Below, piece by piece: positions 26,918-52,274 of a stretch of 64,000 bases of DNA; positions within the stretch are counted from its first letter, which is position 1, and every line of letters begins with the position of its first letter. Under the pieces are notes generated by a model. It saw nothing but the letters and a program-made list of their open reading frames with translations. It was not told the DNA's origin and made no database searches. Where the stretch lies: positions 8,350,501 through 8,414,500 of the forward strand of contig NZ_CP041360.1 in assembly GCF_006965485.1 (NCBI RefSeq), written 5' to 3'. A program made the position numbers and the translations under genes. The stretch is from Spirosoma sp. KCTC 42546 (GTDB taxonomy: Bacteria; Bacteroidota; Bacteroidia; Cytophagales; Spirosomataceae).

Positions 26918-28294
26918 TTACACCTTTTTCGGATCTGGGTGTGTATACGGGCTTCGATACTCTCTGGCGAGCATTTTGGTAGCTTCTTTGTCGCCAACTA
27001 CTTCCCGTTTCACAGGATCATAGACCATGGGGCGACCTGTTTCCATCGACATATTGGCCAGAATGCAACTAGCCGTTGAAATATGCCCTTGCTCAATATC
27101 AGCAACGGGGCGGCTGCTTTTTTCAATGGCGTCCAGGAAGTTAAGCATGTGCAGGCGGGTAGCAGGGGCTGCGTTCAGCTCAATTTTTGGATTGGTGTCT
27201 TCCGTAACGTCTTCTGGATATTTCTCTTTTTCATAGACGACATCCATATGTATTTTCTCGCCTTTTCCATCCGGAATGAAGTCGCACTGCATCGTACTAC
27301 CCCATAAAGTTCCTTTTTCGCCGTAGAGCGTAAACGACCAGGGATAATCGGGATTGTTGGCCGTTCCCCAGGTTTTGTGATGCCACACACAGTTCAGTTC
27401 ATCATACTCAAACAGCGCCGATTGCGTGTCGGAAATGTTCGATTTGCCCTCTTTCTGAACGTAAATGCCACCGTGTGAGCTAATCCGCTTTGGCCAGCCG
27501 AGGTTCAGCATCCAGCGAACGGTATCGAACATGTGTACGCACATATCGCCCGTAATGCCATTGCCGTACTCCTTGAATGTCCGCCACCAGCGCACATGGG
27601 GTAAGCCATCGTAAGGACGAAGCGGAGCGGGACCCGTCCACATGTTGTAATCCAGAAAATCAGGGACGGCTTGCACCGGGGGATTACCATTGGCCCGCAT
27701 ATGCAGGTCACAGGACATCTCTACGTGCGATATTTTACCCAGCAGACCCGCATCAACGATCTCTTTCTTAGCTCTGATCAGGTGAGGGGTGCTTTTGCGT
27801 TGCGTACCCACTTGCACAACCTTATTGTATTTCCGGGCAGCGGCTACCATCGCTTCGCCTTCCATGACGTCGACGCTGATCGGTTTTTGCACATACACGT
27901 GAGCGCCCGCTTTCACACAGTCGATCATTTGCAGCGCATGCCAATGGTCGGGGGTACCGATGAGGACAATATCCAGCTGATTTTCGGCCAGCATTTTTTT
28001 GTAATCGCCATACAGCTTTGGAGTCTGACCCGATTTCTGCCGCTGGCTCACCAACTTTGCCGCACCCGCCAGCATATTTTTATCAACATCGCACAGCGCG
28101 ACAACATCTACAGGAGCAACCTGAATCAGGCGGAGTAAATCACTTTTGCCATACCAGCCCGTACCAATCAGGGCAACACGATACGCCTTTGGTGGATGCA
28201 TCAGGTCCAAACCCCTGGCCCCAAAGGCGGTAAGCGCGAGTGAAGCCGTGGTGCCTTGTATAAACCGACGACGGTTAATATTGAATAGTTCCAT
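26918..28294 (-). CDS. Gfo/Idh/MocA family oxidoreductase, Tat-exported
   Basis: 458 residues. NRRRFIQGTTASLALTAFGA (about 7-26) is a twin-arginine signal, so the folded, cofactor-loaded enzyme is exported. The nucleotide-binding loop is ALIGTGWYGKSDLL. QKPISVDVMEGEAM replaces the usual EKP motif, and GDMCVHMFDTVRWML gives the catalytic His region. Such enzymes oxidise sugars or polyols with NAD(P), or transfer hydride within a bound cofactor in the periplasm. It is the last gene of the minus arm of the sugar locus, 40 bases after the esterase. Confidence 0.92.
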   Translation of the reverse strand: MELFNINRRRFIQGTTASLALTAFGARGLDLMHPPKAYRVALIGTGWYGKSDLLRLIQVAPVDVVALCDVDKNMLAGAAKLVSQRQKSGQTPKLYGDYKKMLAENQLDIVLIGTPDHWHALQMIDCVKAGAHVYVQKPISVDVMEGEAMVAAARKYNKVVQVGTQRKSTPHLIRAKKEIVDAGLLGKISHVEMSCDLHMRANGNPPVQAVPDFLDYNMWTGPAPLRPYDGLPHVRWWRTFKEYGNGITGDMCVHMFDTVRWMLNLGWPKRISSHGGIYVQKEGKSNISDTQSALFEYDELNCVWHHKTWGTANNPDYPWSFTLYGEKGTLWGSTMQCDFIPDGKGEKIHMDVVYEKEKYPEDVTEDTNPKIELNAAPATRLHMLNFLDAIEKSSRPVADIEQGHISTASCILANMSMETGRPMVYDPVKREVVGDKEATKMLAREYRSPYTHPDPKKV

Positions 28295-31097: not shown

Positions 31098-34000
31098 ATG
31101 AAATCTATTCTACTACTACGAAGCGTGATCGGGCTGGTTTGTCTACTGCTAATCACGCTGGTGAGTCAGGCACAATCGACTCGCACCCTGACGGGCCGCA
31201 TCACCGATGCCACAACCAACGGAGGGCTTCCCGGTGTTAACGTCCTTGTCAAAGGCACGCAACAAGGCACAACCACCAATGCAGATGGCCAATACACGCT
31301 CAATGTGCCAGCCAGTGCGGCTACCTTAACTTTTTCTTTTATTGGCTATGTATCTCAGGATGTGGATATCGCCAATCGAAGTACCATCGATGTTACACTA
31401 AAAGCCGACGACCGTTCGCTGAACGAAGTAGTGGTGGTTGGTTACGGAACCCAACGTAAGATTGAAACCACAGGCTCAATTGCGTCGGTAAAAGCAGCGG
31501 ATCTGGTGCAAACGCCAGTTTCCAACGTTGCGCAGGGTCTGCAATCGCGGGTGGCCGGGGTTCAGGTGAGCCAGAATACGGGCGCTCCTGGTGGTAATAT
31601 CAGCGTCCGGATTCGCGGAACAAACTCGATCAACGGAAGCTCTGAGCCACTGTATGTTGTGGACGGTATTCAGATTTCGAACAGTGGTGGTATCAATGAC
31701 GTCAGTCCACTATCGACCATTAACCCGAACGATATTGAGTCAGTCGAAATCCTGAAAGATGCCTCGGCATCCGCTATTTACGGATCGCGGGCGGCCAATG
31801 GCGTTGTCCTGATCACGACCAAACGGGGTAAAACGGGTGCTACCCGCGTGACGTTCGATAGCTATTACGGCGTTCAGAAAGTAAACAAAACCTTGCCAGT
31901 TTTGAATGCGTCTCAATTTGCGCAGTTAGAAAATGAGGTGTTTAAAAACAATTTCTACCCCGACCCTGCATCCTTAGGTGAAGGCACGAACTGGCAAAGT
32001 CTCATTTTCCGTCAGGCGGCTATCCAAAACCACCAGTTGTCGATCAATGGTGGCAACGAAAAAACCCAGGTAGCTCTTTCGGCGAACTACTTCAACCAGG
32101 ACGGCATTATCATCAATTCTGCCTTCAAACGGTATTCATACCGGCTGAATGTTGACCACCGGGTAAGCAAACTCCTGAAAGTAGGTACCAGTCTATTAGG
32201 CAGTTACGCGATTAACTCGGGGGTTACAACGGGATCTGAAACGATTGGTGATGCGGGCGTTGTCACGGCTTCCATCCTCGGCGCAGCCATTGGCGCACCG
32301 CCAACGTTGGTTCCTTACCGGGCCGATGGTACGCTCTTTCCATTTGGCGAACAAGCCGGTGGCCAATATCGGGAAGTTACGAACCCGCTGAACTTCGCCA
32401 GCGTCCTGAACCGGAACGCCATCAAACGGACGCTTGTCAACTTGTACGCTGATTTCAGCATTTTGAAAGGGTTAACCTACCGGGCATCGTTCAACGTAGA
32501 TCTGCAAAGTAGCCTGCGCGACGGATACTCGCCCCGTTCGATTGTCAATAAAGCGGATTTGAATGACAACTCGGGGTCGGGTTTTAAGCTGAATGCCAAT
32601 GGCTTGGCTTTACTGCATGAAAGTATTCTGACTTACAGCACGCTATTCGCCCAGAAGCACTCATTTAAAGCAACGGCGGTAGTGGCCTCCCAATCGGAGG
32701 ACAACAATTCAAATCAGATCAACGCCACCGGCTTCCCGAACGATGCCACCCAAAACGAAGCCCTGCAACTGGCGTTAACCCGTACGGTTACCAGCAGCCG
32801 AAGTCGTACTCGTTTGGATTCGTACCTGGCCCGTATCAATTACGGCTATAAAGACAAGTATTTTCTGGATTTGACCGCCCGGGTCGATGGGTCGAGTAAA
32901 TTCGGAGCCAATCACAAGTACGGTTTATTTCCGGCTGTTTCTGCCGCCTGGCGGATTATTGAAGAGCCATTTGCCAAGAACATTTCCTGGCTTTCGGATT
33001 TGAAACTGCGTGCCAGCTACGGTATTACCGGAAATGCCGGTGGCCTTAACCCGTACCAATCATTGGCAACGGTTTCGGCACCTAACCCTGGCAGTGATTA
33101 CAACATTAATCACACGTACATGATTGGCATTAATCCATCAGGCATCGCCAATCCCGATTTGCGTTGGGAAAAATCTGCCCAAGCTGACATTGGTCTTGAC
33201 ATTAGCTTACTCAACAACCGCATCAGCGTCATTGTCGATGCGTACCAGAAAACTACCAAAGACTTATTGTATGTAAAAGGCCTGCCGTTAAGCTCTGGAT
33301 ATGGCACCATTACCGGCAACTTTGCCTCGCTGGAGAACAAAGGACTAGAATTCGCCGTAAACGCCCGGATTCTGGATGGTCCTCTGAAATGGAATGTGTC
33401 TGGTAACATGACCATGAACCGGAATAAGGTGCTGGATCTGGATGGTGGCACTACGCAGGAACGGTTTATTACCGCTTATTCAATCTTGAAAGTTGGTCAG
33501 CCACTTGGTGTTTTCAAAACCTACGTATTCGATGGGATCAACCAAACCGGCGATGCTATTCTTCCCGGTTACGACGGCCGTTTGGGTGGGCTGAAAGTGA
33601 AGGACATTAACGGCGACGGCACCATTTCGGCTGCCGATCAGGTGATCACCGGCAATCCGAACCCAAAGTTCATTTACGGTTTCTCCACGAATTTGTCGTT
33701 CAAAGGATTTGACCTGAGCATGTTCCTGTCGGGTTCGCAGGGGAACGACATTTACAATGCCGCCCGCCTATCGTTTGAAATGCCATTGGGACAACGGAAC
33801 CAGTTGGCAGGGCTTGCCAATCGCTGGTCGCCTACCAATCCGAGCAATCAATACGTGAGCGGTTTTCAAGCCGGTCGCCTACCCGTGACGAGTCAGGTGG
33901 TTGAAGATGGTTCGTACCTGCGCTGCAAGAATCTGACGCTGGGCTATACGCTGCCACGCATTAAAGGGGTTCAGCAAATTCGGGTATATGTGAGCACCAA

Positions 34001-34142
34001 CAACCTGTTCACGATCACGAAATACAGCGGTTTCGATCCGGAAGTGAATACCTATGCGGGATCAAATACCGCCATCGGTATCGACAATCTGGTATATCCA
34101 CAAGCCAAATCATTCCTGGGCGGTCTTCAGGTCACGTTTTAA
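31098..34142 (+). CDS. SusC/RagA-type TonB-dependent outer-membrane transporter
   Basis: 1014 residues with a signal peptide (about 1-25, ending SQAQ). A carboxypeptidase-regulatory-like domain follows (TLTGRITDATTNGGLPGVNVL), then a TonB box region (NEVVVVGYGTQRK) and the plug with SVRIRGTNSINGSSEPLYVVDG. The rest is a 22-strand barrel ending in FLGGLQVTF with a terminal Phe. SusC imports glycan fragments delivered by SusD, encoded next. The substrate is unknown; the locus suggests a decorated glycoside. Confidence 0.97.
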   Translation: MKSILLLRSVIGLVCLLLITLVSQAQSTRTLTGRITDATTNGGLPGVNVLVKGTQQGTTTNADGQYTLNVPASAATLTFSFIGYVSQDVDIANRSTIDVTLKADDRSLNEVVVVGYGTQRKIETTGSIASVKAADLVQTPVSNVAQGLQSRVAGVQVSQNTGAPGGNISVRIRGTNSINGSSEPLYVVDGIQISNSGGINDVSPLSTINPNDIESVEILKDASASAIYGSRAANGVVLITTKRGKTGATRVTFDSYYGVQKVNKTLPVLNASQFAQLENEVFKNNFYPDPASLGEGTNWQSLIFRQAAIQNHQLSINGGNEKTQVALSANYFNQDGIIINSAFKRYSYRLNVDHRVSKLLKVGTSLLGSYAINSGVTTGSETIGDAGVVTASILGAAIGAPPTLVPYRADGTLFPFGEQAGGQYREVTNPLNFASVLNRNAIKRTLVNLYADFSILKGLTYRASFNVDLQSSLRDGYSPRSIVNKADLNDNSGSGFKLNANGLALLHESILTYSTLFAQKHSFKATAVVASQSEDNNSNQINATGFPNDATQNEALQLALTRTVTSSRSRTRLDSYLARINYGYKDKYFLDLTARVDGSSKFGANHKYGLFPAVSAAWRIIEEPFAKNISWLSDLKLRASYGITGNAGGLNPYQSLATVSAPNPGSDYNINHTYMIGINPSGIANPDLRWEKSAQADIGLDISLLNNRISVIVDAYQKTTKDLLYVKGLPLSSGYGTITGNFASLENKGLEFAVNARILDGPLKWNVSGNMTMNRNKVLDLDGGTTQERFITAYSILKVGQPLGVFKTYVFDGINQTGDAILPGYDGRLGGLKVKDINGDGTISAADQVITGNPNPKFIYGFSTNLSFKGFDLSMFLSGSQGNDIYNAARLSFEMPLGQRNQLAGLANRWSPTNPSNQYVSGFQAGRLPVTSQVVEDGSYLRCKNLTLGYTLPRIKGVQQIRVYVSTNNLFTITKYSGFDPEVNTYAGSNTAIGIDNLVYPQAKSFLGGLQVTF

Positions 34143-34268: not shown

Positions 34269-35744
34269 ATGAAAAAGATACTTATTCCTATACTCGTTGC
34301 CTTCGGCCTGACCTCCTGTGAGCTGGATGAAACCATTTATTCGTCCATTTACACCGAAGCCTTTTACAAAACTGCCGCCGATGCGGAGAAAGGACTCATT
34401 GCAGCTTACGATCCGTTTGCGGATATGTACAGCGGCCCGGCCGGAACCCTGATCGCTGACTTTAGCGATGATCAGACCTATCCGCGTGGCGTGGTGGGCC
34501 GTAATACGTTGACGCTCTTTACCTACGACATCAACTACACGACTCAGAAAAGTAACTCCCGACTCAACGAGGCCCCCCAGCAAATCTGGACATCGGGCTA
34601 TGATGGCATCGAAAAAGCCAACTGGATTATCGCCAAAGTTCCGGCGGCTGTGATGGACGAAACCCGCAAAAAGCAGATCATCGGCGAAGCCTATTACCTG
34701 CGGGCGTTCTACCTCTGGATGCTCACCAAAAATTTCGGTGATGTAGTGATCAAGACCACGCCCAGCTATTCGCAAGCAGATGCCATTCTTGGCAAAAGCC
34801 CAAAAGCCGATGTGTATAAGCAGATTTATGCCGATTTAGACCTGGCCTTCGCAGCGGGTTTACCATCCTATCCGGCGGTTGATAAAGGCCGTCCCTCTAA
34901 AGAAGTAGTCAATGCGCTGTATGCGAAAGCGGCTTTGTATAACGAAGAGTGGCAGAAAGCGCTCGAAAAAGCCCAGGCGGTAATCACATCGGGGAAATAC
35001 TCCCTGATGCCGGATGTACGCAACGTGTATAAATACGATCAGGAAGATGCCGCTCGTATCGAGAATATGTGGGCGTATGAAGTTGATCCGATTTCACCGG
35101 GTCGGTCGCACCAGTTAACGGGCCTGTGCGGGCCTCCTGCCAGCGCCGGACCGGAATACGGCAAAACGACCTTCGGATCGATGTTCGCGTATCAGTCATT
35201 CTACAATTCATTCAACCCTGCGGATAAGCGCCGACTACTGCTCGACACGACCTACGTGGATAAAAATGGCAAAACCATTCCACAAAGGAGCATTACGCCC
35301 ATTACAACCGACGGCGTATTGATCAAGAAATACCAGGACCCAGTTTCGACCCTGAATTTGATCCCAAATATTCCAATTTTCCGCCTGGCCGATATGTACC
35401 TGATTGCCGCCGAAGCCGAAGCCCGTCTAAACGGCGCGACGCCCCTGGCGTATGGCTACATCAACACCATTCGGAAGCGGGCAGGTTTGCCTGATTTACA
35501 AACCGGTCTAAGTAAAGACGCCTTCGTTGATGCCGTTCTCCAGGAGCGAGCCTGGGAGTTTTTTGCCGAAGGCGACCGCTGGTACGACCTCACCCGTACC
35601 GGCAAATTCCTGACGGTTATTCCCAAGGCCGTCAACGCCGTTTATCCGGTTCGGAACGTAACGGCGAAGAATAAATATTTCCCGATTCCGCAGGATGAAC
35701 TGAACGCCAATCCGAAACTGGAGCAGAATCCGGATTGGAAGTAA
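34269..35744 (+). CDS. SusD/RagB-type outer-membrane glycan-binding lipoprotein
   Basis: 491 residues. The lipobox ends at Cys17 (VAFGLTSCELD), so it is a surface lipoprotein. SusD family features are the early EAFYKTAADAEKGLIAAYD helix, the TPR-like YYLRAFYLWMLTKNFGDVV segment and the C-terminal RAWEFFAEGDRWYDLTRTGK, conserved in RagB/SusD. It caps SusC and holds the glycan. It is followed by two palindromes before the next gene, so expression of the rest may differ. Confidence 0.97.
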   Translation: MKKILIPILVAFGLTSCELDETIYSSIYTEAFYKTAADAEKGLIAAYDPFADMYSGPAGTLIADFSDDQTYPRGVVGRNTLTLFTYDINYTTQKSNSRLNEAPQQIWTSGYDGIEKANWIIAKVPAAVMDETRKKQIIGEAYYLRAFYLWMLTKNFGDVVIKTTPSYSQADAILGKSPKADVYKQIYADLDLAFAAGLPSYPAVDKGRPSKEVVNALYAKAALYNEEWQKALEKAQAVITSGKYSLMPDVRNVYKYDQEDAARIENMWAYEVDPISPGRSHQLTGLCGPPASAGPEYGKTTFGSMFAYQSFYNSFNPADKRRLLLDTTYVDKNGKTIPQRSITPITTDGVLIKKYQDPVSTLNLIPNIPIFRLADMYLIAAEAEARLNGATPLAYGYINTIRKRAGLPDLQTGLSKDAFVDAVLQERAWEFFAEGDRWYDLTRTGKFLTVIPKAVNAVYPVRNVTAKNKYFPIPQDELNANPKLEQNPDWK

Positions 35745-35748
35745 GAGT

Positions 35749-35820
35749 ACCCCTAAATCCCCTAAAGGGGACTTGGCTCATGCTTAGAAAAAGTCCTCTC
35801 TAGGGGATTTAGGGGTTTTT
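35749..35820. terminator. hairpin with CCCCTAAATCCCC arms after susD
   Basis: ACCCCTAAATCCCCT at 35749-35763 continues in a 26-base arm that pairs with 35791-35816, followed by a T tract. The sequence type occurs again in a different form at 39057-39133. It is a good terminator for susCD. Confidence 0.8.
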
Positions 35821-35985: not shown

Positions 35986-37107
35986 ATGATACGCTCAACG
36001 ACTTTTTTACTAATCCTTCTCACTCTTTCCGGTTTTTCGGAACGGCCGGAAGGGTATGTCAGGAAGTCGGAGAAAATACGGGAGTTTACCATTACGGAGA
36101 ACGATACGACGTCATACACCCTAAAACTGGCTTTTAATGAGCTGGATCAGCCGTCGTATTTCTTTCGGAATGTGTTTACGCCCGTCTGCCTGACGGGTGA
36201 GTGCAAGCCAGTATATATCAATTTCTATTGGGATCTTTTGGGCAACTACACTCGCTACGATTTACCGCCGGGAGAAGTACTCACCAAAATGGATCACCGG
36301 GAGTTCAAACAGGAAGACTACGATAAGTTACGGGACATTCTGGACAATACGAACTCGCTGCTGAAAGACGTAGCGATGGAGGATCTGGTCGGGAAAGGCA
36401 CCGAAAATCTGGCCGACTCGGTAGATGCCAAAGCGGGCGCGACCTTGAAAACCGTTAAAAATGAAGTGATCGATGGCGCGGTGTATACCTGTTACACGCT
36501 TTGGCACATCGCTCATGGAAAGGTGGCCGATGAAATGCAAAAGATAACCGAATCGTACCGGACAGACGACCTGCTGCACCGCTTTCTGACTAGCAGTAAC
36601 TATCATTACCAATACTGGGCAATGGAGAAAGTGGTCGATAAGGCAGGGAATGTAGTGGAGGCATTTACGACCGATATGCTGCAGATCATCCGGGGGAAAA
36701 ACGTTTTTACGGCCCGATCGGCCTTGCAAAAAATTAGTAACCCGTTTTTTGCTAGTAATGCTCGTCAGGTCTGGCTTTGGGAAACCTACCAATCAGCGGG
36801 CTACCCAATGCAAATCGCTATTCTGAAAAAGCTGGCTAAAATCCCGTTCCAGAATTCGCTGGCCGAAGCAACTGCTAAAGCGATGGTTAATGCCAATCGG
36901 GAGCAGTTTACGCTGATGCTCAAGTTGCTGGAAACTCAGCCCAAATTGTCCGAGAAAGCCCTGCAAACGATGGCCAGTGAGTTAGATACACCCAATCAGG
37001 ACTATGCAACGGAGATCAACCGAGTCCTAACCAATTTCCATCCGAAGAACCGCGCTGTTGTGGCAAAGATGAACGCCTTTAAACATAAAGCTACGCAAAC
37101 CAGATAG
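35986..37107 (+). CDS. secreted protein with FMN-binding-like AGAT motif
   Basis: 373 residues with a probable signal peptide (MIRSTTFLLILLTLSGFSE). Residues 147-157 read VDAKAGATLKT, close to the D-x-x-S-G-A-T-x-x-S site where ApbE attaches FMN to a threonine; Thr153 would be that residue. The first Ser is Ala here, which weakens the case. VFTPVCLTGECKPVYINFYWD (62-82) precedes it. The second half is helical and HEAT-like. ApbE is encoded two genes later and a FAD oxidoreductase in between, so it may be a flavinylated electron carrier. Confidence 0.55.
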   Translation: MIRSTTFLLILLTLSGFSERPEGYVRKSEKIREFTITENDTTSYTLKLAFNELDQPSYFFRNVFTPVCLTGECKPVYINFYWDLLGNYTRYDLPPGEVLTKMDHREFKQEDYDKLRDILDNTNSLLKDVAMEDLVGKGTENLADSVDAKAGATLKTVKNEVIDGAVYTCYTLWHIAHGKVADEMQKITESYRTDDLLHRFLTSSNYHYQYWAMEKVVDKAGNVVEAFTTDMLQIIRGKNVFTARSALQKISNPFFASNARQVWLWETYQSAGYPMQIAILKKLAKIPFQNSLAEATAKAMVNANREQFTLMLKLLETQPKLSEKALQTMASELDTPNQDYATEINRVLTNFHPKNRAVVAKMNAFKHKATQTR

Positions 37108-37232
37108 AACGCTGATTATCATGATTATTAAGATTTCTCTATGATATTTTCAGCAAAACAGAATATCCATTTCAGCTCAAGAAATTATAGATCATAACCA
37201 ATAATAAGCATCATAAAAATCAGCGTTCTATC
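37103..37232. repeat. inverted repeat flanking a 100-base AT-rich spacer
   Basis: GATAGAACGCTGATT (37103-37117) pairs perfectly with 37218-37232. The left arm covers the stop codon of the preceding gene. The spacer holds several weaker ATCAT/ATGAT pairings. The next gene starts 21 bases after. Confidence 0.65.
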
Positions 37233-37252
37233 AATCCAAATCGAAAAATGAG

Positions 37253-39058
37253 ATGAAATCAATTTATCAATTTCTGTTCTTCCTGCTGCTTTCTCTGCCT
37301 CTGGTGGCGCAGGATCAGGTTTTTGTCGAGACGGAATCGTTTCAGAATAAAGGCGGCTGGGTAATCGACCAGCAATCCTTTGTCGTTATCGGTTCCTCCT
37401 ACATGATGGCCCACGGGATGGGACGTCCGGTAAAGGACGCGACAACAACAGTAAGCTTCCCCAAAAAGGGCAAATACCAACTCTGGGTACGCACCAAAGA
37501 CTGGGCCCCTTTTCCGAAAGGTCCAGGGAAATTTCAGGTGGTCGTTGATAATCAGCCCGTAAAAATGGTCTTCGGCGAAAGCGGTTCGGACGAATGGAAA
37601 TGGTATAACGGTGGAGAAGTTGATATTAAAAGCGATCAGGTCAATCTGGCCCTACATGATTTAACTGGTTTCAACGGTCGCTGCGACGCGATTCTGTTTA
37701 CGAACGCGCCTAAATTCACACCACCTGATAAGCTGGAGGCATTAACTGCCTTTCGGAATAAACTACTCAATCTGACCGGCACTACGGCCAATGCGGGGCA
37801 GTTCGATCTGGTTGTTGTTGGAGGAGGTATTGCCGGAACCTGTGCCGCACTTTCAGCCGCTCGCATGGGTTTAAAAGTGGCCCTGATTCAGGATCGCCCG
37901 TTGTTAGGCGGAAATAATAGTTCGGAGGTTCGGGTGCATCTCCGGGGCGAAACCGATCAGAATCACTATCCTAAACTCGGCCGTATCGTTCGGGAAATGG
38001 ACAATGGCGATCCGGGCAATGGCAATCCGAACGGCAACGAATATGGCGATGCCCGGAAAATTGCCATCGTGAAAGCCGAACGGAACATTAAGCTGTTCCT
38101 GAATACCCACGTGTACAAAGCCGAAAAAGATAAGGATAAAGTAACCGCGGTTGTGGGCAGAGATATAGCTACCAACAAGGAAACTCGCTTCGAAGGAACC
38201 TACTTTGCCGACTGTACCGGCGATGGTACGCTCGGGGCTCTGATTGGTGCCGACTACCGGTTTGGTCGCGAGAGCAAGGCCGAAACGGGGGAATCACTTG
38301 CCGCTGAAAAATCGGATAACTTTACGCTGGGTACATCCAATCTATGGGCCTCGCTGGAGCGAGATACCGCTTCGTCATTCCCCGAGGTGCCCTGGGCGCT
38401 GCCCTTTTCGGATGAGTATCACATCGATGAAGCTCGCTCCGACTGGCAGTGGGAAACGGGTTTCGGGAATTATAACACCATCACCGATGCCGAGAAAATA
38501 CGCGACCATAATCTGCGGGCGATCTACGGCAACTGGTCATATCTGAAAAAGAATAAGTCCGAAAAATACGCGAAGCGTGAACTCGCCTGGGTGGCTTACA
38601 TTGGTGGCAAGCGCGAATCTCGTCGGCTCCTCGGCGACCATATTCTTACCCAAATGGACATTCAGGAAGGCAAACAATATCCGGATGGCACCGTAACCGC
38701 TACCTGGACTATTGACTTACACTTTCCTGACCCCAAGAACAGCAAATACTTTGAGGGACAGGAGTTTTTTGCCGGAACGAAACACATCAAAGTGGCTCCG
38801 TATACCATTCCATACCGCTGTTTGTATTCGAAGAATATTTCCAACCTATTTATGGCGGGTCGTAACATCAGTACAACACATGTGGCTTTTGGCAGTACGC
38901 GCGTTATGCGTACCTGCGGTATGATGGGCGAAGTTGTTGGCTTTGCCGCCTACATGGCTAAAAAATACAATACGGCTCCACGGGGCGTTTATCAGGAACA
39001 CTTGCCGGAATTTATGGCAATCATTAAAGATGAACCCACAGCAAGCAGCAAGCCTTAG
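37253..39058 (+). CDS. secreted FAD-dependent oxidoreductase with N-terminal beta-sandwich
   Basis: 601 residues. A signal peptide covers 1-19 (MKSIYQFLFFLLLSLPLVAQ). Residues about 22-160 form a carbohydrate-binding-like sandwich (YQLWVRTKDWAPF). The FAD Rossmann motif DLVVVGGGIAGTCAALSAARMG lies near 185-206, with LLGGNNSSEVRVH next, as in the FAD_oxidored family. The C-terminal NISNLFMAGRNISTTHVAFGSTRVM is typical. It likely oxidises or reduces a sugar-linked substrate in the periplasm. It follows the FMN-motif protein and precedes apbE. Reaction unknown. Confidence 0.88.
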   Translation: MKSIYQFLFFLLLSLPLVAQDQVFVETESFQNKGGWVIDQQSFVVIGSSYMMAHGMGRPVKDATTTVSFPKKGKYQLWVRTKDWAPFPKGPGKFQVVVDNQPVKMVFGESGSDEWKWYNGGEVDIKSDQVNLALHDLTGFNGRCDAILFTNAPKFTPPDKLEALTAFRNKLLNLTGTTANAGQFDLVVVGGGIAGTCAALSAARMGLKVALIQDRPLLGGNNSSEVRVHLRGETDQNHYPKLGRIVREMDNGDPGNGNPNGNEYGDARKIAIVKAERNIKLFLNTHVYKAEKDKDKVTAVVGRDIATNKETRFEGTYFADCTGDGTLGALIGADYRFGRESKAETGESLAAEKSDNFTLGTSNLWASLERDTASSFPEVPWALPFSDEYHIDEARSDWQWETGFGNYNTITDAEKIRDHNLRAIYGNWSYLKKNKSEKYAKRELAWVAYIGGKRESRRLLGDHILTQMDIQEGKQYPDGTVTATWTIDLHFPDPKNSKYFEGQEFFAGTKHIKVAPYTIPYRCLYSKNISNLFMAGRNISTTHVAFGSTRVMRTCGMMGEVVGFAAYMAKKYNTAPRGVYQEHLPEFMAIIKDEPTASSKP

Positions 39059-40088
39059 AAGAACCCCCAACCCCCTAAAGGGGGCTAAAACCTCCGGGAG
39101 AAAAGCCCCCTTTAGGGGGTTGGGGGTTCTTCTATTTCTCTTCACTACCTCTTTCTCAGCGGCCACGGAGCTGCCAATGGTCAATCTGGAAGGGGAAGCG
39201 CAGGGAACAACGTATCATATCAAGTACCGGGACGAGCAGCAGCGTAATCTCAAAAAAGAAATTGATTCGGTCCTGATCACGATTGACAAATGCCTGTCGA
39301 CCTATCGGGCAGACTCCGAGATTTCGCGGTTCAATCGGTCGGAGAGGCACCAGTTTGAGTCGCCCTATTTTTATCCGGTTTTGAAAAAATCGGAAGAAGT
39401 ATTCCGGGCAACCAACGGGGCTTTTGATCCAACCGTCATGCCGTTAGTCGAAGCCTACGGGTTTGGTCCTAAAAAAATACGATTACCTGAGCCAGTTAAC
39501 ATTGATTCATTAGTACAACTAGTTGGTTTTCAAAAGGTCTCATTCGACGCTGTGTCGATCCGGAAGCTAACCAAAAATATACGGCTGGATTTCAATGGGA
39601 TTGCCCAGGGTTACTCGGTCGATGTTGTTTCGGAGTTTCTGGAAAGTAGAGGCATTGATCGGTACATGGTAGAAATTGGCGGGGAGATTCGTACTAAAGG
39701 GAAGAAAGGCGAAGACCAGGTCTGGACAATCGGGATTGAAAACCCACTTCAGCCCGGAAAAATGCTGACGACTCTGAAACTGGTAAACCGGGCGATGACA
39801 ACCGCTGGAAATTACCGCAACCACTACGAATCGAATGGCCAGACGTTTAGCCACATCATCAATCCCAAAACGGGGATGATGGAACAAAGTTCGGTGTTGA
39901 GCGTAACAGTTTTTGCACCGGATGCGATCACTGCCGATGGGTACGATACGGCCTTTTTCGTGATGGGTCTGGACGCCACGAAGCGGTTTCTGTCGACCCG
40001 GAAAGACCTGGACGTATACATTGTTTACACCGGGGAGGACGGCCAACCAAAGACATTCGTTACCGAAGGATTGAAAAAAGAGCAGTAG
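39030..40088 (+). CDS. apbE: FAD:protein FMN transferase ApbE
   Basis: About 350 residues. ApbE moves FMN from FAD onto a Thr of an extracytoplasmic protein, with Mg2+. The core EAQGTTYHIKYRD, LDFNGIAQGYSVD, GGEIRTKGKKG, HIINPKTGMM and ADGYDTAFFVMG are present. The start is uncertain. The ATG at 39030 gives an N-terminus translated from the palindrome (RRTPNPLKGA). A TTG at 39120 gives a short signal peptide, GVLLFLFTTSFSAATEL, and seems plausible too. Either way the catalytic domain is exported. The first 29 bases overlap the FAD gene if 39030 is used. Confidence 0.9.
   Translation: MNPQQAASLRRTPNPLKGAKTSGRKAPFRGLGVLLFLFTTSFSAATELPMVNLEGEAQGTTYHIKYRDEQQRNLKKEIDSVLITIDKCLSTYRADSEISRFNRSERHQFESPYFYPVLKKSEEVFRATNGAFDPTVMPLVEAYGFGPKKIRLPEPVNIDSLVQLVGFQKVSFDAVSIRKLTKNIRLDFNGIAQGYSVDVVSEFLESRGIDRYMVEIGGEIRTKGKKGEDQVWTIGIENPLQPGKMLTTLKLVNRAMTTAGNYRNHYESNGQTFSHIINPKTGMMEQSSVLSVTVFAPDAITADGYDTAFFVMGLDATKRFLSTRKDLDVYIVYTGEDGQPKTFVTEGLKKEQ
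39057..39133. repeat. perfect 30-bp palindrome at the apbE start
   Basis: Arms 39057-39086 and 39104-39133 pair perfectly around a 17-base loop. The arm carries the C-rich unit CCCCCAACCCCCTAAAGGGGG typical of Bacteroidota intergenic repeats (family knowledge). It begins in the stop codon of the FAD oxidoreductase and runs through the presumed N-terminal codons of apbE. Confidence 0.85.
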
Positions 40089-40168
40089 CCAATAAATGGA
40101 TAATGTAAAATGAATAATGGATAACTGGTGACTCCAATTATCTATTGTCCATTAGTTTAAAACCTGAT

Positions 40169-42757
40169 ATGAAAAATAAACTAATAGCCACTGTCTATTT
40201 GCTGACGCTAAGCGCCTTTGCAAGTTTTAGCTCAACCAATGGACAGACCATTTCACCGCAATTGGCCAACGATCGAATTCGTTTGGTCTGGGCGAAAACG
40301 GCCCGTGGCTTTGAAGGAAAGCAGATTCAAGTGAAGAAAGGCGACCGCTGGCTAACCGTTGGGACACCATCCGGCGAAAACACCTTGCTCTATACGGCCG
40401 AGAAACCGTCCGATAAGCCGGATACAACATTTAAAGACCTTACTGGTGCTGTTTTCCCAAGCGAAAAATACCATTATCAGCAAGTGCAATGGGCGGAAAG
40501 CACCAATCCGGTTTCACTGAACAAAGCCGGTCAGGCCATTCACTTTTTCCCGCAAAAAGCAGAACAGACAAGTAAAAACAACCTGGTCTTTCGGCAGGAA
40601 ACCGACGTTGCTACGATTGTTACGGAATGGACGTTAGACCCGAAGTTCGCGTCAGATATTATTGTCAAACAGACGATTACACCCAAGAAAGCGGGTTATT
40701 TTTCCCTCGCCACTCCAACACTCGCTACAGTTACTGAACAGAATCTGGCCTGGGCAACGGTACCGGGCTATTTTCAGGGGAACAAGCTTCAGCCAAATTT
40801 TGCACTGGCGTATGCCTACGGACACGGCATTCCAACCCTGCCCGTTATCTATCGCGAACGGTGCGCCAGTACACTTAGCCCGATGATTACCACCAAAAAT
40901 GGGGTTACGCTCGCCGTTATTCCCGAACCGGGTCTGGCACGCGATCCCTGGGCAAACGACAAAATCACGCAAATAGACTGGAACATTGGGCTGTCGCACA
41001 TGAACCGCAAAGCCCAACTGTCTCCAACGCTATATTATCCCGTTTTGGGCGAGCCAAAATCGGCGTTAAAATCGGGCGAGTCGATTAGTTATACCTTCCG
41101 ATACAGCCTCACCGATGGTGACTGGTTCAAGGCACTGAATCATGCAGTCTACGACATTTATCAGTTCAAACAATCATTGGCACTGCGGCAAAGCAAACAA
41201 TCGTTGATCGATCGCATCGAAAAAATGCACCATTACCTGACCGACCCGAAAACATCGTTATGGAACATTGAGGAATTTGAGGGCAAGAAAATCGGGGCGC
41301 AATCGTATCTGGGTGGCGTAGTTGGTTCTAACAAAGACGCCATGAAAAACTCCGATTATGGTGCGATGTGGATGCTGGCCAATGCAACGAAAGATCCGCT
41401 GCTCACCCAAAACGTGTTGCCCTACGCCGAGAATTTCAAACTCGCCCAGCAGGAAACGGGGAATAGCTTTTTCAAGGGCGCACCCGAGGGCCAGTATTAT
41501 CTGGCAAAATCCAAAAAGTTTGTGGAGGAGTGGGGCGAGGTTGTCGAGCCTATTGGCCTCACCTATTACACCATGCTCGACATTGGCAATATGCTGTTGT
41601 TCGAGACTGCCAATACCGAACTGAAAGAACGACTGCGCTTCGGTGCCGACCGGCTGTTAACCTGGCAAAAACCGGATGGTAGTTGGGCAGTGGCCTATGA
41701 CCGTCATACGGAAAAGGAAATTTTCAAAGACATTCTGGATGTCAGACCCACATTCTACGGATTAATTGTGGCCTACCGCATCCTGCAAGAGCCTAAGTAT
41801 CTCGCAGCAGCCCGAAAAGGGGCCGACTGGTTTCTCAAAAACGCCATTGCAACGGGAAGCTACCTCGGTGTATGTGGCGATGCACGCTACGCACCCGATT
41901 TCGCGACGGGCCAGTCGGCACAGGCGCTCTTGGATCTGTATGATTTAACCAAGGACGCCCGCTACAAAGCGGCTGCTATTATCGCTGCTAAGGTGTATAC
42001 CACGTCGATTTACACCCACCCAATTGCCAGCCATAAAGCAAAAACCGTAAACGGAACCCCGCGCGAAGACTGGGAGATTAGCCAATCGGGGTTGAGCTTT
42101 GAACATGGTGGCATTTTCGGTTCAGCGACCCGGAACGGGCCTATTCAACTCTGCAGTCATGCGGGCCTGTTCATTCGGATGTATGGCTTAACCAAGGAGC
42201 CCATTTTTGCCGATATGGCCCGTGCAGGTGCCATCGGACGGGATGCGTTTGTCGATCCCAAAACCAGCGTTGCGTCCTATTATTGGCAAACCATGAACCG
42301 AGGTGCCGGTCCTTACCCGCACCATGCCTGGTGGCAAATTGGCTGGCTAACCGATTACCTGATGGCCGAAGCCGAATTGCGGTCAGCCGGTAAAGTGACC
42401 TTTCCGCGCGGGTTTGTAACGCCAAAAGTTGGTCCGCATCAGACCTACGGTTTCAAAGCCGGTACGATTTACGGCCAACCGGCCACACTCTTGATTCAGG
42501 AAGGATTAGTACAACCCGACAGCCCCGTTATCGACTACATGCTGGCCCAATCTGCCGATCAGAAAAAGCTATACGTCGTTTTGCAGAACAATCGGGCACA
42601 ACCAACGAAATCTAAATTAGTCCTCAATCCGACAGTATTAAAAAAGAGCATTGCAGGTGCCAAGTGGCTTCCCACGAATCAGACGGTTTCTGCCGATGCC
42701 CTCTCGATTGAGTTGCCGGGCTTTGGGCAGAGTGTACTAGAAATTGATTTACAGTAA
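40169..42757 (+). CDS. secreted alpha/alpha-toroid protein, possible glycan-active enzyme
   Basis: About 862 residues from the ATG at 40169 (an upstream TTG at 40145 is less likely). A signal peptide covers about 1-28, ending SSTNGQT. The N-terminal half (30-330) is beta-rich. From about residue 370 come helical repeats with LLTWQKPDGSWAVAYD, GADWFLKNAIATGSYLGVC and YKAAAIIAAKVY, the pattern of an (alpha/alpha) toroid as in glycoside hydrolases and lyases. Similar proteins in the phylum are often annotated loosely. No catalytic residue can be named. It likely acts on the glycan of this locus. Confidence 0.65.
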   Translation: MKNKLIATVYLLTLSAFASFSSTNGQTISPQLANDRIRLVWAKTARGFEGKQIQVKKGDRWLTVGTPSGENTLLYTAEKPSDKPDTTFKDLTGAVFPSEKYHYQQVQWAESTNPVSLNKAGQAIHFFPQKAEQTSKNNLVFRQETDVATIVTEWTLDPKFASDIIVKQTITPKKAGYFSLATPTLATVTEQNLAWATVPGYFQGNKLQPNFALAYAYGHGIPTLPVIYRERCASTLSPMITTKNGVTLAVIPEPGLARDPWANDKITQIDWNIGLSHMNRKAQLSPTLYYPVLGEPKSALKSGESISYTFRYSLTDGDWFKALNHAVYDIYQFKQSLALRQSKQSLIDRIEKMHHYLTDPKTSLWNIEEFEGKKIGAQSYLGGVVGSNKDAMKNSDYGAMWMLANATKDPLLTQNVLPYAENFKLAQQETGNSFFKGAPEGQYYLAKSKKFVEEWGEVVEPIGLTYYTMLDIGNMLLFETANTELKERLRFGADRLLTWQKPDGSWAVAYDRHTEKEIFKDILDVRPTFYGLIVAYRILQEPKYLAAARKGADWFLKNAIATGSYLGVCGDARYAPDFATGQSAQALLDLYDLTKDARYKAAAIIAAKVYTTSIYTHPIASHKAKTVNGTPREDWEISQSGLSFEHGGIFGSATRNGPIQLCSHAGLFIRMYGLTKEPIFADMARAGAIGRDAFVDPKTSVASYYWQTMNRGAGPYPHHAWWQIGWLTDYLMAEAELRSAGKVTFPRGFVTPKVGPHQTYGFKAGTIYGQPATLLIQEGLVQPDSPVIDYMLAQSADQKKLYVVLQNNRAQPTKSKLVLNPTVLKKSIAGAKWLPTNQTVSADALSIELPGFGQSVLEIDLQ

Positions 42758-42828: not shown

Positions 42829-42911
42829 ATGAATACAACCATGGATACAGCAGTCATTGTCATTTCCCTGGCTTTTTTACTGAGAATCGGGTTGTTGTTT
42901 GCCCGAACGGG
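42829..42911 (+). pseudogene. remnant of an SSS symporter 5' end
   Basis: It encodes MNTTMDTAVIVISLAFLLRI and eight more residues. 22 of 28 match the start of the intact symporter at 43583, and 64 of 82 bases match by my count (78%). It breaks off into unrelated sequence at 42912. The differences are mainly conservative, so the copy came from a functional relative. Confidence 0.82.
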
Positions 42912-42917
42912 GGATTA

Positions 42918-43076
42918 TTACTTTTTTTTAAGTTGCTCAGGAAGCCCCGCACGTTCAAGAACCTTGTTTGCCCTCTCCAATTTTTCGGCGAAGGGTTCCC
43001 GTCCGTCTTTTCCTTTCAACACTTTCGTCGGAACAATGACAGACGCAGTTAAGTGGGCATCTTTAGGAGATTTCAT
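42918..43076 (-). CDS. small hypothetical protein, 52 aa, partner of DUF6934-like gene
   Basis: 52 residues from ATG at 43076 to stop at 42918: MKSPKDAHLTASVIVPTKVL at the start, a charged helix EKLERANKVLERAG and a Lys-rich end. It lies 29 bases after the DUF6934-like gene in the same direction, so they look like a two-gene operon. The pairing of a mid-size protein with a short charged one resembles toxin-antitoxin modules, but this is inference. It is short and could be chance; the charged helix makes chance less likely. Confidence 0.5.
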   Translation of the reverse strand: MKSPKDAHLTASVIVPTKVLKGKDGREPFAEKLERANKVLERAGLPEQLKKK

Positions 43077-43105
43077 GTTGCTGCTTGTTTCTATGAATGT
43101 AGAAT

Positions 43106-43546
43106 TTATTTCTTTTCAATCAAATACAACTCGTATTGCTGGCTTATATCGAATGATTCCCAAGCATCGTTTCGAAAGCCAAACAACGAATAGAGGGGAG
43201 CAAGTTCAGAAAGGCCCCGGTTAATTGCCATACGATAAAGACGGTTACGAGCGGGTGTATTTCCGCTAAAAATAATAAGTCGATCTGGATACTTGGTTAG
43301 AAATTCGTTGATGACCCAAAAGGTAGTGGCCATGATTTTACCTGTGTCGCCATTATCGCTAACAACAGAATCGTCAAGCTCTCCAGATAGTTGGTTATAG
43401 TCGCCCAGGGCCAGGTTGTATACGCTGGAATTGATAGTTGGAGCCAGAATGATCGCTTTTAAAATCAATCCGTTACGGCCAATACTTTCAAAGAAAAACT
43501 GTGTAGCGTCGGCATTTGATTGGTAGGAATAACTAGGATGTTGCAC
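43106..43546 (-). CDS. DUF6934-like protein
   Basis: 146 residues starting with GTG at 43546. The features FFESIGRNGLILKAIILAP, YNLALGDYN, DSVVSDNGDTGKIMATTFWVINEF and LIIFSGNTPARNRLYRMAINR match what I recall for the Bacteroidota family DUF6934, small proteins found in variable regions. Function unknown. The start codon lies about 37 bases before the symporter start, on the opposite strand, right at the junction of the inserted block. Confidence 0.65.
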   Translation of the reverse strand: MQHPSYSYQSNADATQFFFESIGRNGLILKAIILAPTINSSVYNLALGDYNQLSGELDDSVVSDNGDTGKIMATTFWVINEFLTKYPDRLIIFSGNTPARNRLYRMAINRGLSELAPLYSLFGFRNDAWESFDISQQYELYLIEKK

Positions 43547-43582: not shown

Positions 43583-45310
43583 TTGAATACAACCATAGAT
43601 ACTGCCGTCATCGTCATTTTCTCAGCCTTTGTGCTGGGTATAGGCATGCTTTTTGCCCGAACGGGCCGGAATTTAAAGTCCTTCTTTGCGGGTGGCGAGG
43701 CCGTACCCTGGTTCATTGGCGGCTTGTCGCTGTTCATGAGCTTCTTCTCGGCGGGTACGTTCGTGGCATGGGGTTCTATTGCGTACAAACACGGCTGGGT
43801 GGCCATCACCATTCAGTGGACCATGTGCATTGGGGCACTGGTAACGGGAATTTACCTGGCACCCCGCTGGAAACAGACCGGAGCACTGACGGCCGCCGAG
43901 TTCATCCGTGCTCGCCTGGGAACGAATGTTCAAAAAGTCTACATCTTCATTTTTACGCTGGTTTCGCTGTTCATCAAAGGCTCGGTTCTCTATCCGGTGG
44001 CCAAGTTGGTTAGCTCATCACTGAATTTACCACTCGTTCCCTGCACCATTGGCCTAGGCTTTTTTATGATTGCCTACACGGCGGTTGGCGGATTATGGGC
44101 CGTAATGGTTACCGATATTTTGCAGTTCGTGGTACTATCGGCAGCGGTGTTTATCCTGCTGCCTTTGTCCCTCGACCGAGTTGGCGGATTGGATGGATTC
44201 GTGAAAGCAGTGCCCGACGATTTCTTCAACCTTATCAATGGCGAGTACACCATCGGATTTATAGCTGCCTTCGTGATTTATCACATCTGTTACATCGGCG
44301 GAAACTGGACGTTTGTGCAACGCTACACCAGCGTCGACAGTCCGAAGTCGGCGCGCAAAGTGGCGTTTCTATTTGCGGGATTGTATCTCATCAGCCCGGT
44401 CATCTGGATGATGCCGCCCATGATCTACAAGGCGATCAATCCATCGCTAACGGGTTTGGACACCGAAAATGCGTATCTCATGATCTGCAAACTCGTGTTA
44501 CCACCGGGCCTGCTGGGGCTTATGCTAACAGGTATGTACTTCTCGACATCGGCGAGTGCAAACACCGCGCTGAACGTAGTATCGGCTGTTTTTACCAATG
44601 ACATTTACAAAGGTTTGATCAATCCGAAAGCGTCTGACAAAAAGCTGATTCGGGTAGCCCGAGGCTCTTCCTGGGTGTTTGGCTTAGGGATGATTGGCAT
44701 TGCCTTGATGGTGCCCGCAGCGGGTGGCATTGTTGAAGTGGTGCTGAGCATTTCGTCCATTTCGGGCGGGCCACTGCTTGCTCCTCCCCTTTGGGCAATG
44801 TTCTCTAAACGCCTGACCAGCCGGGCAACGCTTTGGGTAACGGGTATCGGGCTAACCGTCAATCTGTTCTTCAAAATACTGGCTCCTCTACTGTTAGACT
44901 TTAAGCTTACCCGAGGGGCCGAAACCATTATTGGGGTAGGGCTTCCCCTATTGCTTTTACTTGGCTATGAGCTATGGGCACGCTCGAAAGACGTGACAGC
45001 CAATGAATACTATCAATACCTGATTGCCCGCCAGCAAAAGCGGGATGATGCCCAGGCCGAATCACCCGAAGAAGCCCTGGCGATACGGAAACAGAATCGG
45101 TTTGGGTTACAGGTAATTGCTGGCTCCTTAGTATTCACTGCGCTCATGCTGGGTGGTTTAAGCACATTTGCCGAAGTGGGCGGGGGTATTACGGCCTGTC
45201 TTGGTGGCGTCATTCTGCTGGCAGCATTGATTCCCTATCGTGCTTCCCAGCGGGTTCAGTTGGGGTCAGAACCGCAGCAAATCGAGAAACTCATCAATAC
45301 GGATAACTGA
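43583..45310 (+). CDS. sodium:solute symporter (SSS) of the sugar locus
   Basis: 575 residues, about 13-14 helices. AFVLGIGMLFARTG, AGTFVAWGSIAYKHGW, DILQFVVLSAAVFILL and TSASANTALNVVSAVFTNDIYK fit SGLT-like symporters. The start is TTG at 43583, whereas the related remnant upstream has ATG, so the native start may have been lost at the junction (43583/43584). An internal ATG at 43645 would shorten the first helix. The stop overlaps the PIN gene by 45 bases on the other strand. It probably imports the sugar released by locus enzymes. Confidence 0.88.
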   Translation: MNTTIDTAVIVIFSAFVLGIGMLFARTGRNLKSFFAGGEAVPWFIGGLSLFMSFFSAGTFVAWGSIAYKHGWVAITIQWTMCIGALVTGIYLAPRWKQTGALTAAEFIRARLGTNVQKVYIFIFTLVSLFIKGSVLYPVAKLVSSSLNLPLVPCTIGLGFFMIAYTAVGGLWAVMVTDILQFVVLSAAVFILLPLSLDRVGGLDGFVKAVPDDFFNLINGEYTIGFIAAFVIYHICYIGGNWTFVQRYTSVDSPKSARKVAFLFAGLYLISPVIWMMPPMIYKAINPSLTGLDTENAYLMICKLVLPPGLLGLMLTGMYFSTSASANTALNVVSAVFTNDIYKGLINPKASDKKLIRVARGSSWVFGLGMIGIALMVPAAGGIVEVVLSISSISGGPLLAPPLWAMFSKRLTSRATLWVTGIGLTVNLFFKILAPLLLDFKLTRGAETIIGVGLPLLLLLGYELWARSKDVTANEYYQYLIARQQKRDDAQAESPEEALAIRKQNRFGLQVIAGSLVFTALMLGGLSTFAEVGGGITACLGGVILLAALIPYRASQRVQLGSEPQQIEKLINTDN

Positions 45311-45974: not shown

Positions 45975-48041
45975 ATGACATATACAAGAAACAGTTTACT
46001 AGTTCTTTTGATTTTGGGACTACTCACAACGAGTTTCGCCCAATACACTATTCGCGACCCCAAAGCCATCCCGCTTCATGGTCAATGGTCATTTGCGATG
46101 GACCCACAGGAAGTTGGCGAAAAGGCTAGCTGGTATCGGGAAGGAGCGCCATTGGGCCGCTGGGATAACGTAACGGTTCCACACTGTTTTTCGGTCGATC
46201 CCCGGTATCAGTTTTATACCGGAACGGTCTGGTATCGCCGGACTTTCCCCTGGCAACCAAGCGCTGGGAAACGTGTACTACTTCATCTCGACGCTTCGTA
46301 TTACAAGACAACAGTCTGGATCAATAACCAGAAAGTGGGTACACACGAAGGCGGTTATACCCCCTTTCAATTCGATATAACCAGCTATTTAAAGACGAAA
46401 CAGGCCGACGGTTCCGATAATACAATCGCCATTTCGGTCAATAATAATACCTGGGGAGTGGGCACGGTTCCGGGCGGAAAAGATAACAACGAGCCCAATG
46501 ATCCGTTTCCGGGCTGGCTAAATTATGGTGGTCTTATCCGCCCCATCTACCTGACTGTTGAACCAGATGTCTTTGTCGAAAATGTAAAAACCGAAGCGAT
46601 GCCAGATTTGGTAAAAGGCACAGCAACCCTAAAAATTAAAACCCGGATTCGGAATGCGAGCGGGCAGGCCGTTACGCCAAAACTGGCGTTTCGGGTGGAG
46701 CAAAATGGCAAACCCATTACGCTAATCTGGAAACAGCAACCGGGTAATATAGGCACGAACCAAACCGCCGTACTCGAAGCGGAGAGCGTTTTAAAAACGA
46801 CCGACGTAAAACTGTGGAGCATCGACCAACCGACCTTGTACGACTTACAGGTAGTAGTCGCCACAGATACAGTCCGAACCCATTTCGGGATTCGTAAAGT
46901 GGAGGTTCGCGACACACAGATACTGCTAAATGGGCAACCCATTAAAGTAGCGGGTGGCAATCGCGTGGTCGATCATCCCGGCTTGGGATCACTGGAGCCC
47001 GATTGGCTGGTGGAGAAAGATATGCGGCTAATGAAAGAAGCCGGTATGGAGCTTCACCGATTAACGCACTATACGCCGTCTGAAGCCATTTACGATTGGG
47101 CCGACCGCAACGGCATGCTGATTATCAGCGAAGCCGGCAACTGGCAACTGACACCAAGACAAATGGACAACGATACCATCCGCACAAAATTCCGTCATCA
47201 GTTTCGGGAGATGGCCGAGCGTGACTGGAATCACCCCTGCGTGATTGCGTACAGCGTGGGCAATGAATACCTCTCCGAACAACCAGCCGGGCAACGCTGG
47301 ACCAAAGACATGATTGCCTACGCCCGCGAACTCGACCCAACACGTCTGTACACCTTTGCGTCGATGCGGCTCAATTCATTACCGAAAAAGCCTGAAGATG
47401 AGGCCAGTCAATACTGCGATTTCATTTCGACCAATACGTACGGCAATCACCTCAATATCCTGAAACATATCCATTCACTTTACCCCGACAAGCCTATTTT
47501 CATCAGCGAATATGGCACACGTGCCGATGGTAAAGATGGCGAAGCGGGTCAGGTTACACACCTTGAGAAGTTCCTCTCCGATATTCGGCAACTGCCTTAT
47601 GTGGTTGGGGCCTCGTGGTGGTCGTTTAACGATTATTTGAGTCGGCATAATGGTACGAATGCCGATGGCACTCGCCCGTGGGGGCTGGTCCGGTGGGATC
47701 GGTCGAAGCGGCCACTCTACCAAACGCATCAGGCCGGCATGGCCCCCGTTACGGTTGAGAAAATCAGTTGGGAAACGGGTAGCGAGGGTGTGCATGCCTT
47801 AAAGCTGCGCGTCACAGCCCGCAAGGATTTTCCGGCGTATGCCCTCAAAAACTACTCCTTAAAAACAAATACCAGAACTATTCCTATTCCTGACCTTCAA
47901 CCTGGCCAACAGGCCGATTTAAGCATTCCCGTGCGTGGTTTCGACAAAACACTATCTGTGGAAGTCATGAAGCCAACCGGATTTTCTATTCTCATCCAAA
48001 CGATTGATTTAACGAATGATACGCGAACAAGCAGCCGATAA
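45975..48041 (+). CDS. glycoside hydrolase family 2, secreted
   Basis: 688 residues with a signal peptide at 1-22 (MTYTRNSLLVLLILGLLTTSFA). The jelly-roll sugar-binding domain (25-200) has LHLDASYYKTTVWINNQKVG. The TIM barrel follows with the acid/base Glu in YSVGNEYLSEQ (near 430) and the nucleophile Glu in FISEYGTRADG (near 513). The family includes beta-galactosidases, beta-glucuronidases and beta-mannosidases; which one cannot be decided. Its 3' end overlaps the next FAD gene by 26 bases, so the two are translationally coupled. Confidence 0.92.
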   Translation: MTYTRNSLLVLLILGLLTTSFAQYTIRDPKAIPLHGQWSFAMDPQEVGEKASWYREGAPLGRWDNVTVPHCFSVDPRYQFYTGTVWYRRTFPWQPSAGKRVLLHLDASYYKTTVWINNQKVGTHEGGYTPFQFDITSYLKTKQADGSDNTIAISVNNNTWGVGTVPGGKDNNEPNDPFPGWLNYGGLIRPIYLTVEPDVFVENVKTEAMPDLVKGTATLKIKTRIRNASGQAVTPKLAFRVEQNGKPITLIWKQQPGNIGTNQTAVLEAESVLKTTDVKLWSIDQPTLYDLQVVVATDTVRTHFGIRKVEVRDTQILLNGQPIKVAGGNRVVDHPGLGSLEPDWLVEKDMRLMKEAGMELHRLTHYTPSEAIYDWADRNGMLIISEAGNWQLTPRQMDNDTIRTKFRHQFREMAERDWNHPCVIAYSVGNEYLSEQPAGQRWTKDMIAYARELDPTRLYTFASMRLNSLPKKPEDEASQYCDFISTNTYGNHLNILKHIHSLYPDKPIFISEYGTRADGKDGEAGQVTHLEKFLSDIRQLPYVVGASWWSFNDYLSRHNGTNADGTRPWGLVRWDRSKRPLYQTHQAGMAPVTVEKISWETGSEGVHALKLRVTARKDFPAYALKNYSLKTNTRTIPIPDLQPGQQADLSIPVRGFDKTLSVEVMKPTGFSILIQTIDLTNDTRTSSR

Positions 48042-52216: not shown

Positions 52217-52274
52217 GCTATTTAAACGCAAAGGGCGCCAAGGTAAGCGCAAAGAACGCAGAGTTTTTTTACAC

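Follow-up and report, generated by a model that had tools for sequence, protein, structure and literature searches.

A 64,000-nt stretch of the Spirosoma sp. KCTC 42546 genome (hereafter the window, in whose positions all coordinates are given) carries the gene of a 373-residue protein, here named FMNB (35986–37107, + strand). With a probability of about 0.8, this protein is interpreted as a diverged periplasmic substrate of ApbE with the FMN-bind fold, which would carry flavin mononucleotide (FMN) on Thr153, exchange electrons with the adjacent PF12831 oxidoreductase dependent on flavin adenine dinucleotide (FAD), and possess a HEAT/ARM-like module. The computed support consists of fold resemblance, an invariant site, constant pairing and a glycan-locus context, and we infer secretion, FMN attachment, contact between FMNB and the oxidoreductase, and electron flow. 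The initial annotation of this stretch had described the open reading frame (ORF) with its motif VDAKAGATLKT, followed in a row by an FAD oxidoreductase and ApbE with spacings of 145 bases or less, and all of this was found. In particular, the oxidoreductase FADox1 (37253–39058, + strand; PF12831, E 3.1e-75) begins after a gap of 145 bases, while the ApbE FAD:protein FMN transferase (39030–40088, + strand; PF02424, E 3.4e-80) overlaps FADox1 or lies ~60 bases from it, according to which start is taken, as its ORF opens at 38934 with candidate starts at ATG 39030 or TTG 39120.

Fold and predicted flavinylation site of FMNB

The N-terminal domain of FMNB (residues 30–194; 36073–36567, + strand) was modelled alone, since in structural comparison the full-length protein matched helical repeats through its C-terminal half, which left the N-terminal half hardly tested. 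The first 15 rows obtained with the domain model were all RnfG or NqrC, and by this comparison the domain has the same fold as the NqrC/RnfG FMN-bind domains, which bears out the FMN-binding fold expected from the initial annotation. The C-terminal half (about residues 190–373; 36553–37104, + strand) consists of HEAT/ARM-like helical repeats according to structural comparison. Moreover, the FMNB model has a hydrophobic N-terminal helix (residues 5–14), and the N-terminus reads as a putative signal peptide and the protein as extracytosolic.

Membership of the FMN-bind family could not be established by sequence alone. FMNB gave only sub-threshold matches in Pfam and NCBIfam profile searches, PF04205 was not among the Pfam matches of 23 FMNB family members even with E values of up to 10 admitted, and neither DUF2271 nor DUF3570 was among those of FMNB or the family members searched. 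The search of PDB sequences was likewise sub-threshold (FMN domain 8p2b, E 1.3 and 0.61). Thus, the profile match that had been suggested as a check was not obtained, although a profile-profile alignment against PF04205, limited to the motif, paired the two GAT motifs locally. We propose that FMNB is invisible to profiles for being too diverged for the present models.

The predicted ApbE motif, D147-A-K-A-G-A-T153-L-K-T (36424–36453, + strand), has Thr153 as candidate FMN acceptor (codon 36442–36444). Conservation was counted over 292 distinct FMNB-family cores (residues 60–180), in which Asp147 and Thr153 were unvarying (292/292), in keeping with the conservation of Thr153 that had been anticipated for relatives, and Gly151 and Ala152 were found in 288 and 290 cores, respectively. 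The pair Cys68-x4-Cys73 (36187–36204, + strand) was also invariant in all 292. Position 150 was occupied by Ser (114), Ala (105), Thr (71) or Val (2), so that S/T-GAT appeared in 180 cores and A-GAT, the state of the window (DAKAGAT), in 104, while at 70 percent identity S/T-GAT appeared in 28 of 37 clusters and A-GAT in 5. Thus AGAT is, like the textbook SGAT and TGAT, one of the three states commonly seen, but by clusters it is in the minority. The initial annotation had regarded Ala in place of Ser as its weak point; the Ala is real, but the concern is answered, because relatives (e.g. the second FMNB copy of the Dyadobacter locus L020 and the Zobellia protein) have Ser or Thr at this position and Ala occupies motif position 4 in 4 of 23 same-phylum PF04205 proteins examined by sequence comparison (DAIAGATIT or DALAGATIT), these 23 being the loci, out of 30, that passed a motif and length filter, so that Ala was counted among motif-bearing proteins. 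For reference, the available text of PMC12052999 gives the minimal ApbE motif as D-x-x-[S/T]-G-A-[S/T] and reports that changing the acceptor Thr to Ala abolishes flavinylation; Ala at motif position 4 is not dealt with in it. Furthermore, D-x-x-[STA]-G-A-T occurred 24 times in 152,240 residues of the window and 22 related loci (stop-to-stop stretches at least 200 aa long in all six frames), which exceeds chance, since all 24 occurrences lay in frames also bearing the C-x4-C and Trp signature of the family upstream.

Pairing with PF12831 oxidoreductases and supply of ApbE

FADox1 was assigned to PF12831 with 254.5 bits over its FAD domain (residues 185–584), versus 28.3 bits over 36 residues for PF00890, and its N-terminus, read by eye, resembles a putative signal peptide. 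A PF12831 homologue was located downstream of FMNB in all 22 close loci, with gaps reaching ~990 bases in L011 and ~640 in L017. A second set comprised 65 loci from three genome searches: 10 matches, minus one already fetched, from 395 genomes, 26 from a family of 199 genomes and the 30 best-scoring from the family of the window. Removal of duplicates left 61 distinct loci, which share species with the 22 close ones and were not summed with them. In this set, genes called PF12831-like by a home-made profile adjoined FMNB in 59 of 61 loci, so that the two flavin-type domains stand on separate adjoining proteins, as had been claimed for the window. The exceptions were L039 and L090; in L039 apbE adjoins FMNB and the FAD gene lies one gene beyond, as seen in L188. 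All 61 pairs were co-strand, with the FAD gene upstream of FMNB in 26 and downstream in 35, and this flip of order between clades while the pairing stays argues for function, not for inherited order alone. In its own genome (8.66 Mb), each of the two FMNB copies lies beside one of 10 full-length PF12831 genes. A tree of the FAD partners spread them over several separate lineages; a filter had removed six of the genome's ten full-length PF12831 proteins from it, so that it bears on the spread of the partners and not on partnered versus unpartnered enzymes.

Regarding ApbE, a gene similar to that of the window appeared within the fetched flank (up to 8 kb) in 14 of the 22 close loci, the others being L003, L004, L005, L007, L011, L018, L019 and L021, so that the constant neighbourhood of FMNB relatives and apbE considered in the initial annotation did not hold. 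With flanks of ~1.5 kb, which would miss an apbE beyond the FAD gene, it was found in 1 of 65 loci. All 16 tested genomes having the FMNB family encoded ApbE, but this is no evidence either way, ApbE being near-universal in the window's family (148 of 150 genomes). The Spirosoma genome itself has four ApbE, of which one is fused to DUF2271 (L031, G000:C1:7674043-7674867) and may flavinylate itself, and another lies beside DUF3570. A genome search revealed neither PF04205 nor NqrB/RnfD in it, PF04205 being present in 21 of the 150 genomes of the family.

An alternative that we hold to be unlikely is that FMNB is flavinylated but is a general periplasmic electron carrier (e.g. to a membrane cytochrome), the adjacent FAD enzyme being one of several users. 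It would explain the single FMNB standing between two FAD genes in L086, L087 and L191, and the lack of an FMNB in the flank of a second oxidoreductase of the window, FADox2, whose like pair with FMNB elsewhere. However, in the Dyadobacter locus L020 (7953–14643) two pairs surround one apbE (FMNB-FAD-ApbE-FMNB-FAD), and in 43 of the 61 pairs the genes overlap or are separated by no more than 8 bases (a spacing that depends on use of the first start codon), both of which fit dedicated partners; moreover, profile searches of operon proteins turned up no cytochrome or membrane electron carrier. L020 also offers a natural test of partner specificity. With a lower probability still, FMNB could have an FMN-bind-like fold and be an FMN-free maturation or docking factor of the PF12831 enzyme, its repeats serving as chaperone or scaffold and its Thr being structural. 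Such a factor would suit the HEAT/ARM-like half and the fact that the FAD gene, rather than apbE, is the constant neighbour, yet if no FMN were attached it would be hard to see why Asp and Thr are invariant and why the residue before GAT is almost only Ala, Ser or Thr (Val in 2), and apbE shares the cluster in those 14 close loci. Finally, FMNB could be an unrelated secreted protein that bears the motif by chance, the ApbE of the locus serving another target; this would agree with FMNB having no profile-model match, but is very improbable and largely refuted by conservation, considering the invariance in 292 distinct cores, the S/T motif forms in most clusters and the RnfG/NqrC resemblance.

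Locus context and distribution of the family

Upstream of FMNB lie a SusC-like TonB-dependent importer (31098–34142, + strand; named from sequence reading, without a profile search), similar genes being also upstream in close loci, and SusD (34269–35744, + strand; PF07980). Downstream of apbE follow a GH127-like gene (40145–42757, + strand; a weak match under the Pfam cut-off), present in 22/22 close loci, a sodium:solute symporter (43583–45310, + strand; PF00474), and, identified by profile matches, a GH2 glycosidase (45975–48041, + strand), FADox2 (48016–50298, + strand; PF12831) and a GMC enzyme (50477–52324, opposite strand). The second FAD oxidoreductase and the GMC enzyme had both been placed in this locus at the outset; the former stands and the latter is present, but on the opposite strand, its operon membership not being required. 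Eight wider regions, picked from distant clades, each contained at least one sulfatase, SusC/SusD-like or GH2 gene, such genes being common in the phylum and their background uncounted.

Several further observations were made. A CstA-like carbon starvation protein adjoins FMNB in three distant loci (L185, by a PF02554 match, and L187 and L190, by similar N-terminus and length alone), and single distant loci contained a DUF7133/cytochrome c protein and a MauG-type protein, respectively, numbers too small to support a conclusion. Alignment of both stretches showed a second copy of the symporter gene's 5′ end farther upstream (42829–43224), with an unrelated opposite-strand ORF between the two, which looks like a remnant of insertion or tandem duplication. 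A palindromic element, CCCCCTAAAGGGGGCT, occurs as two exact inverted copies at the start of ApbE (39071–39119), where it blurs the start position, and as a third copy, mismatched at two positions, ahead of the FMNB gene (35758–35773); these three copies, against 0.03 expected, may represent a mobile or regulatory intergenic repeat. Furthermore, a Gfo/Idh/MocA protein with a weak twin-arginine translocation (TAT) match (26918–28294), whose best NCBIfam match was the glycoside 3-dehydrogenase family BT_2158 (148 of 750 bits, far under the cut-off), is possibly another sugar-redox enzyme near the locus.

A protein search found 314 FMNB homologues at E 1e-3 (best 120 of 314 listed), and two wider profile searches gave 179 matches (120 of 179 listed) and 35 matches. 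The closest relatives indicate the genus Spirosoma. The relatives named among the matches listed were Spirosoma, Larkinella, Runella and Dyadobacter, with Zobellia, Maribacter, Formosa, Flavobacterium and Catalinimonas being more distant; many rows were nameless, and all the organisms named are, we take it, Bacteroidota. The family is patchy, as it appeared in at least 8 of 395 Bacteroidota genomes (narrow profile, at most 4 candidates scored per genome), in 22 of 199 genomes of one distant Bacteroidota family and in 51 of the 150 genomes of the family to which the window belongs, where one genome can have as many as six matches.

Relation to known systems and proposed role

FMNB resembles NqrC/RnfG (PF04205) in the structure of its N-terminal domain and in having D-x-x-x-G-A-T near the domain end; those proteins are extracytosolic, as FMNB would be from its N-terminus. 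In contrast, FMNB is not recognized by PF04205, has the additional invariant Cys-x4-Cys and the HEAT/ARM-like half, and its host genome is devoid of PF04205 and NqrB/RnfD. Similar to FADox1-FMNB, fumarate/urocanate reductase-like enzymes (PF00890) are extracytosolic FAD enzymes served by an ApbE-type FMN domain, which is either fused to them or encoded in the same cluster, and the available text of PMC8238504 counts 189 clusters in 171 genomes with PF00890 and the FMN-binding domain as separate genes. The split arrangement of FMN-type and FAD-type proteins put forward in the initial annotation holds here, but as such it was already in print; what differs is the PF12831 enzyme, an unrecognized family of FMN-type domain and the glycan-utilization context. 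The same source traced DUF2271 and DUF3570 from orphan apbE genes and showed their flavinylation; like FMNB, for which this is predicted only, they lack the canonical FMN-bind profile while being ApbE substrates, but FMNB matches neither in Pfam and has an NqrC/RnfG-like fold. Flavodoxin_4 and FMN_red proteins, recent classes of substrates obtained from gene context, motif and models (PMC11334425, in its available part), belong to other families, mostly of Firmicutes, and underwent in vitro flavinylation tests. Both split FMN/FAD genes in one cluster (PF00890) and the context-based discovery of ApbE substrate classes are already known.

In the proposed mechanism, ApbE from the neighbouring gene would attach FMN to Thr153, and FMNB would exchange electrons with the adjacent PF12831 enzyme, with FMN on one chain and FAD on the other and the HEAT/ARM-like repeats as a plausible docking surface. 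As the initial annotation did, we infer covalent FMN on FMNB and sugar chemistry. Our guess is that the enzyme oxidizes or reduces a glycan-derived sugar and that electrons pass to or from the respiratory chain. In fumarate-/urocanate-reductase-like enzymes the active site receives its electrons from the membrane (PMC8238504, available text). That direction would make the PF12831 enzymes reductases, while a sugar dehydrogenase would use the reverse one. Physiologically, the latter is the more natural guess for the glycan locus of an aerobe, and it is offered here as a guess. A broader and more tentative picture, to which we attach rather less than even odds, is that glycan loci of Bacteroidota encode an unrecognized FAD/FMN system of two proteins, in which secreted PF12831 enzymes would carry out periplasmic sugar redox reactions, with FMN, and perhaps the Cys pair, on a HEAT-tethered partner exchanging electrons with the respiratory chain.

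Within the open-licence literature, no published role was found for the PF12831 oxidoreductases of glycan loci, nor any paper on PF12831 with flavinylation or ApbE in such loci, PMC9045290 being the one paper found to name PF12831; expression of an FAD-dependent oxidoreductase beside a SusC/D pair is reported for Maribacter (PMC11345257, available text). If these PF12831 enzymes do have a covalent flavoprotein as partner, they are probably coupled to an electron carrier instead of acting as free oxidases, which would guide how they should be assayed. In that case FMNB would also stand for a further class of ApbE substrates, invisible to profile searches, and profile-based tallies of flavinylated proteins in Bacteroidota would be too low; this class would be relevant to the orphan apbE genes left unexplained in 4 percent of genomes (PMC8238504, available text). 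The pairing of FMNB with PF12831 enzymes hints at an unstudied redox step in the use of complex sugars and, if the two-protein system is true, polysaccharide breakdown itself would feed or use electron transport outside the cytoplasm.
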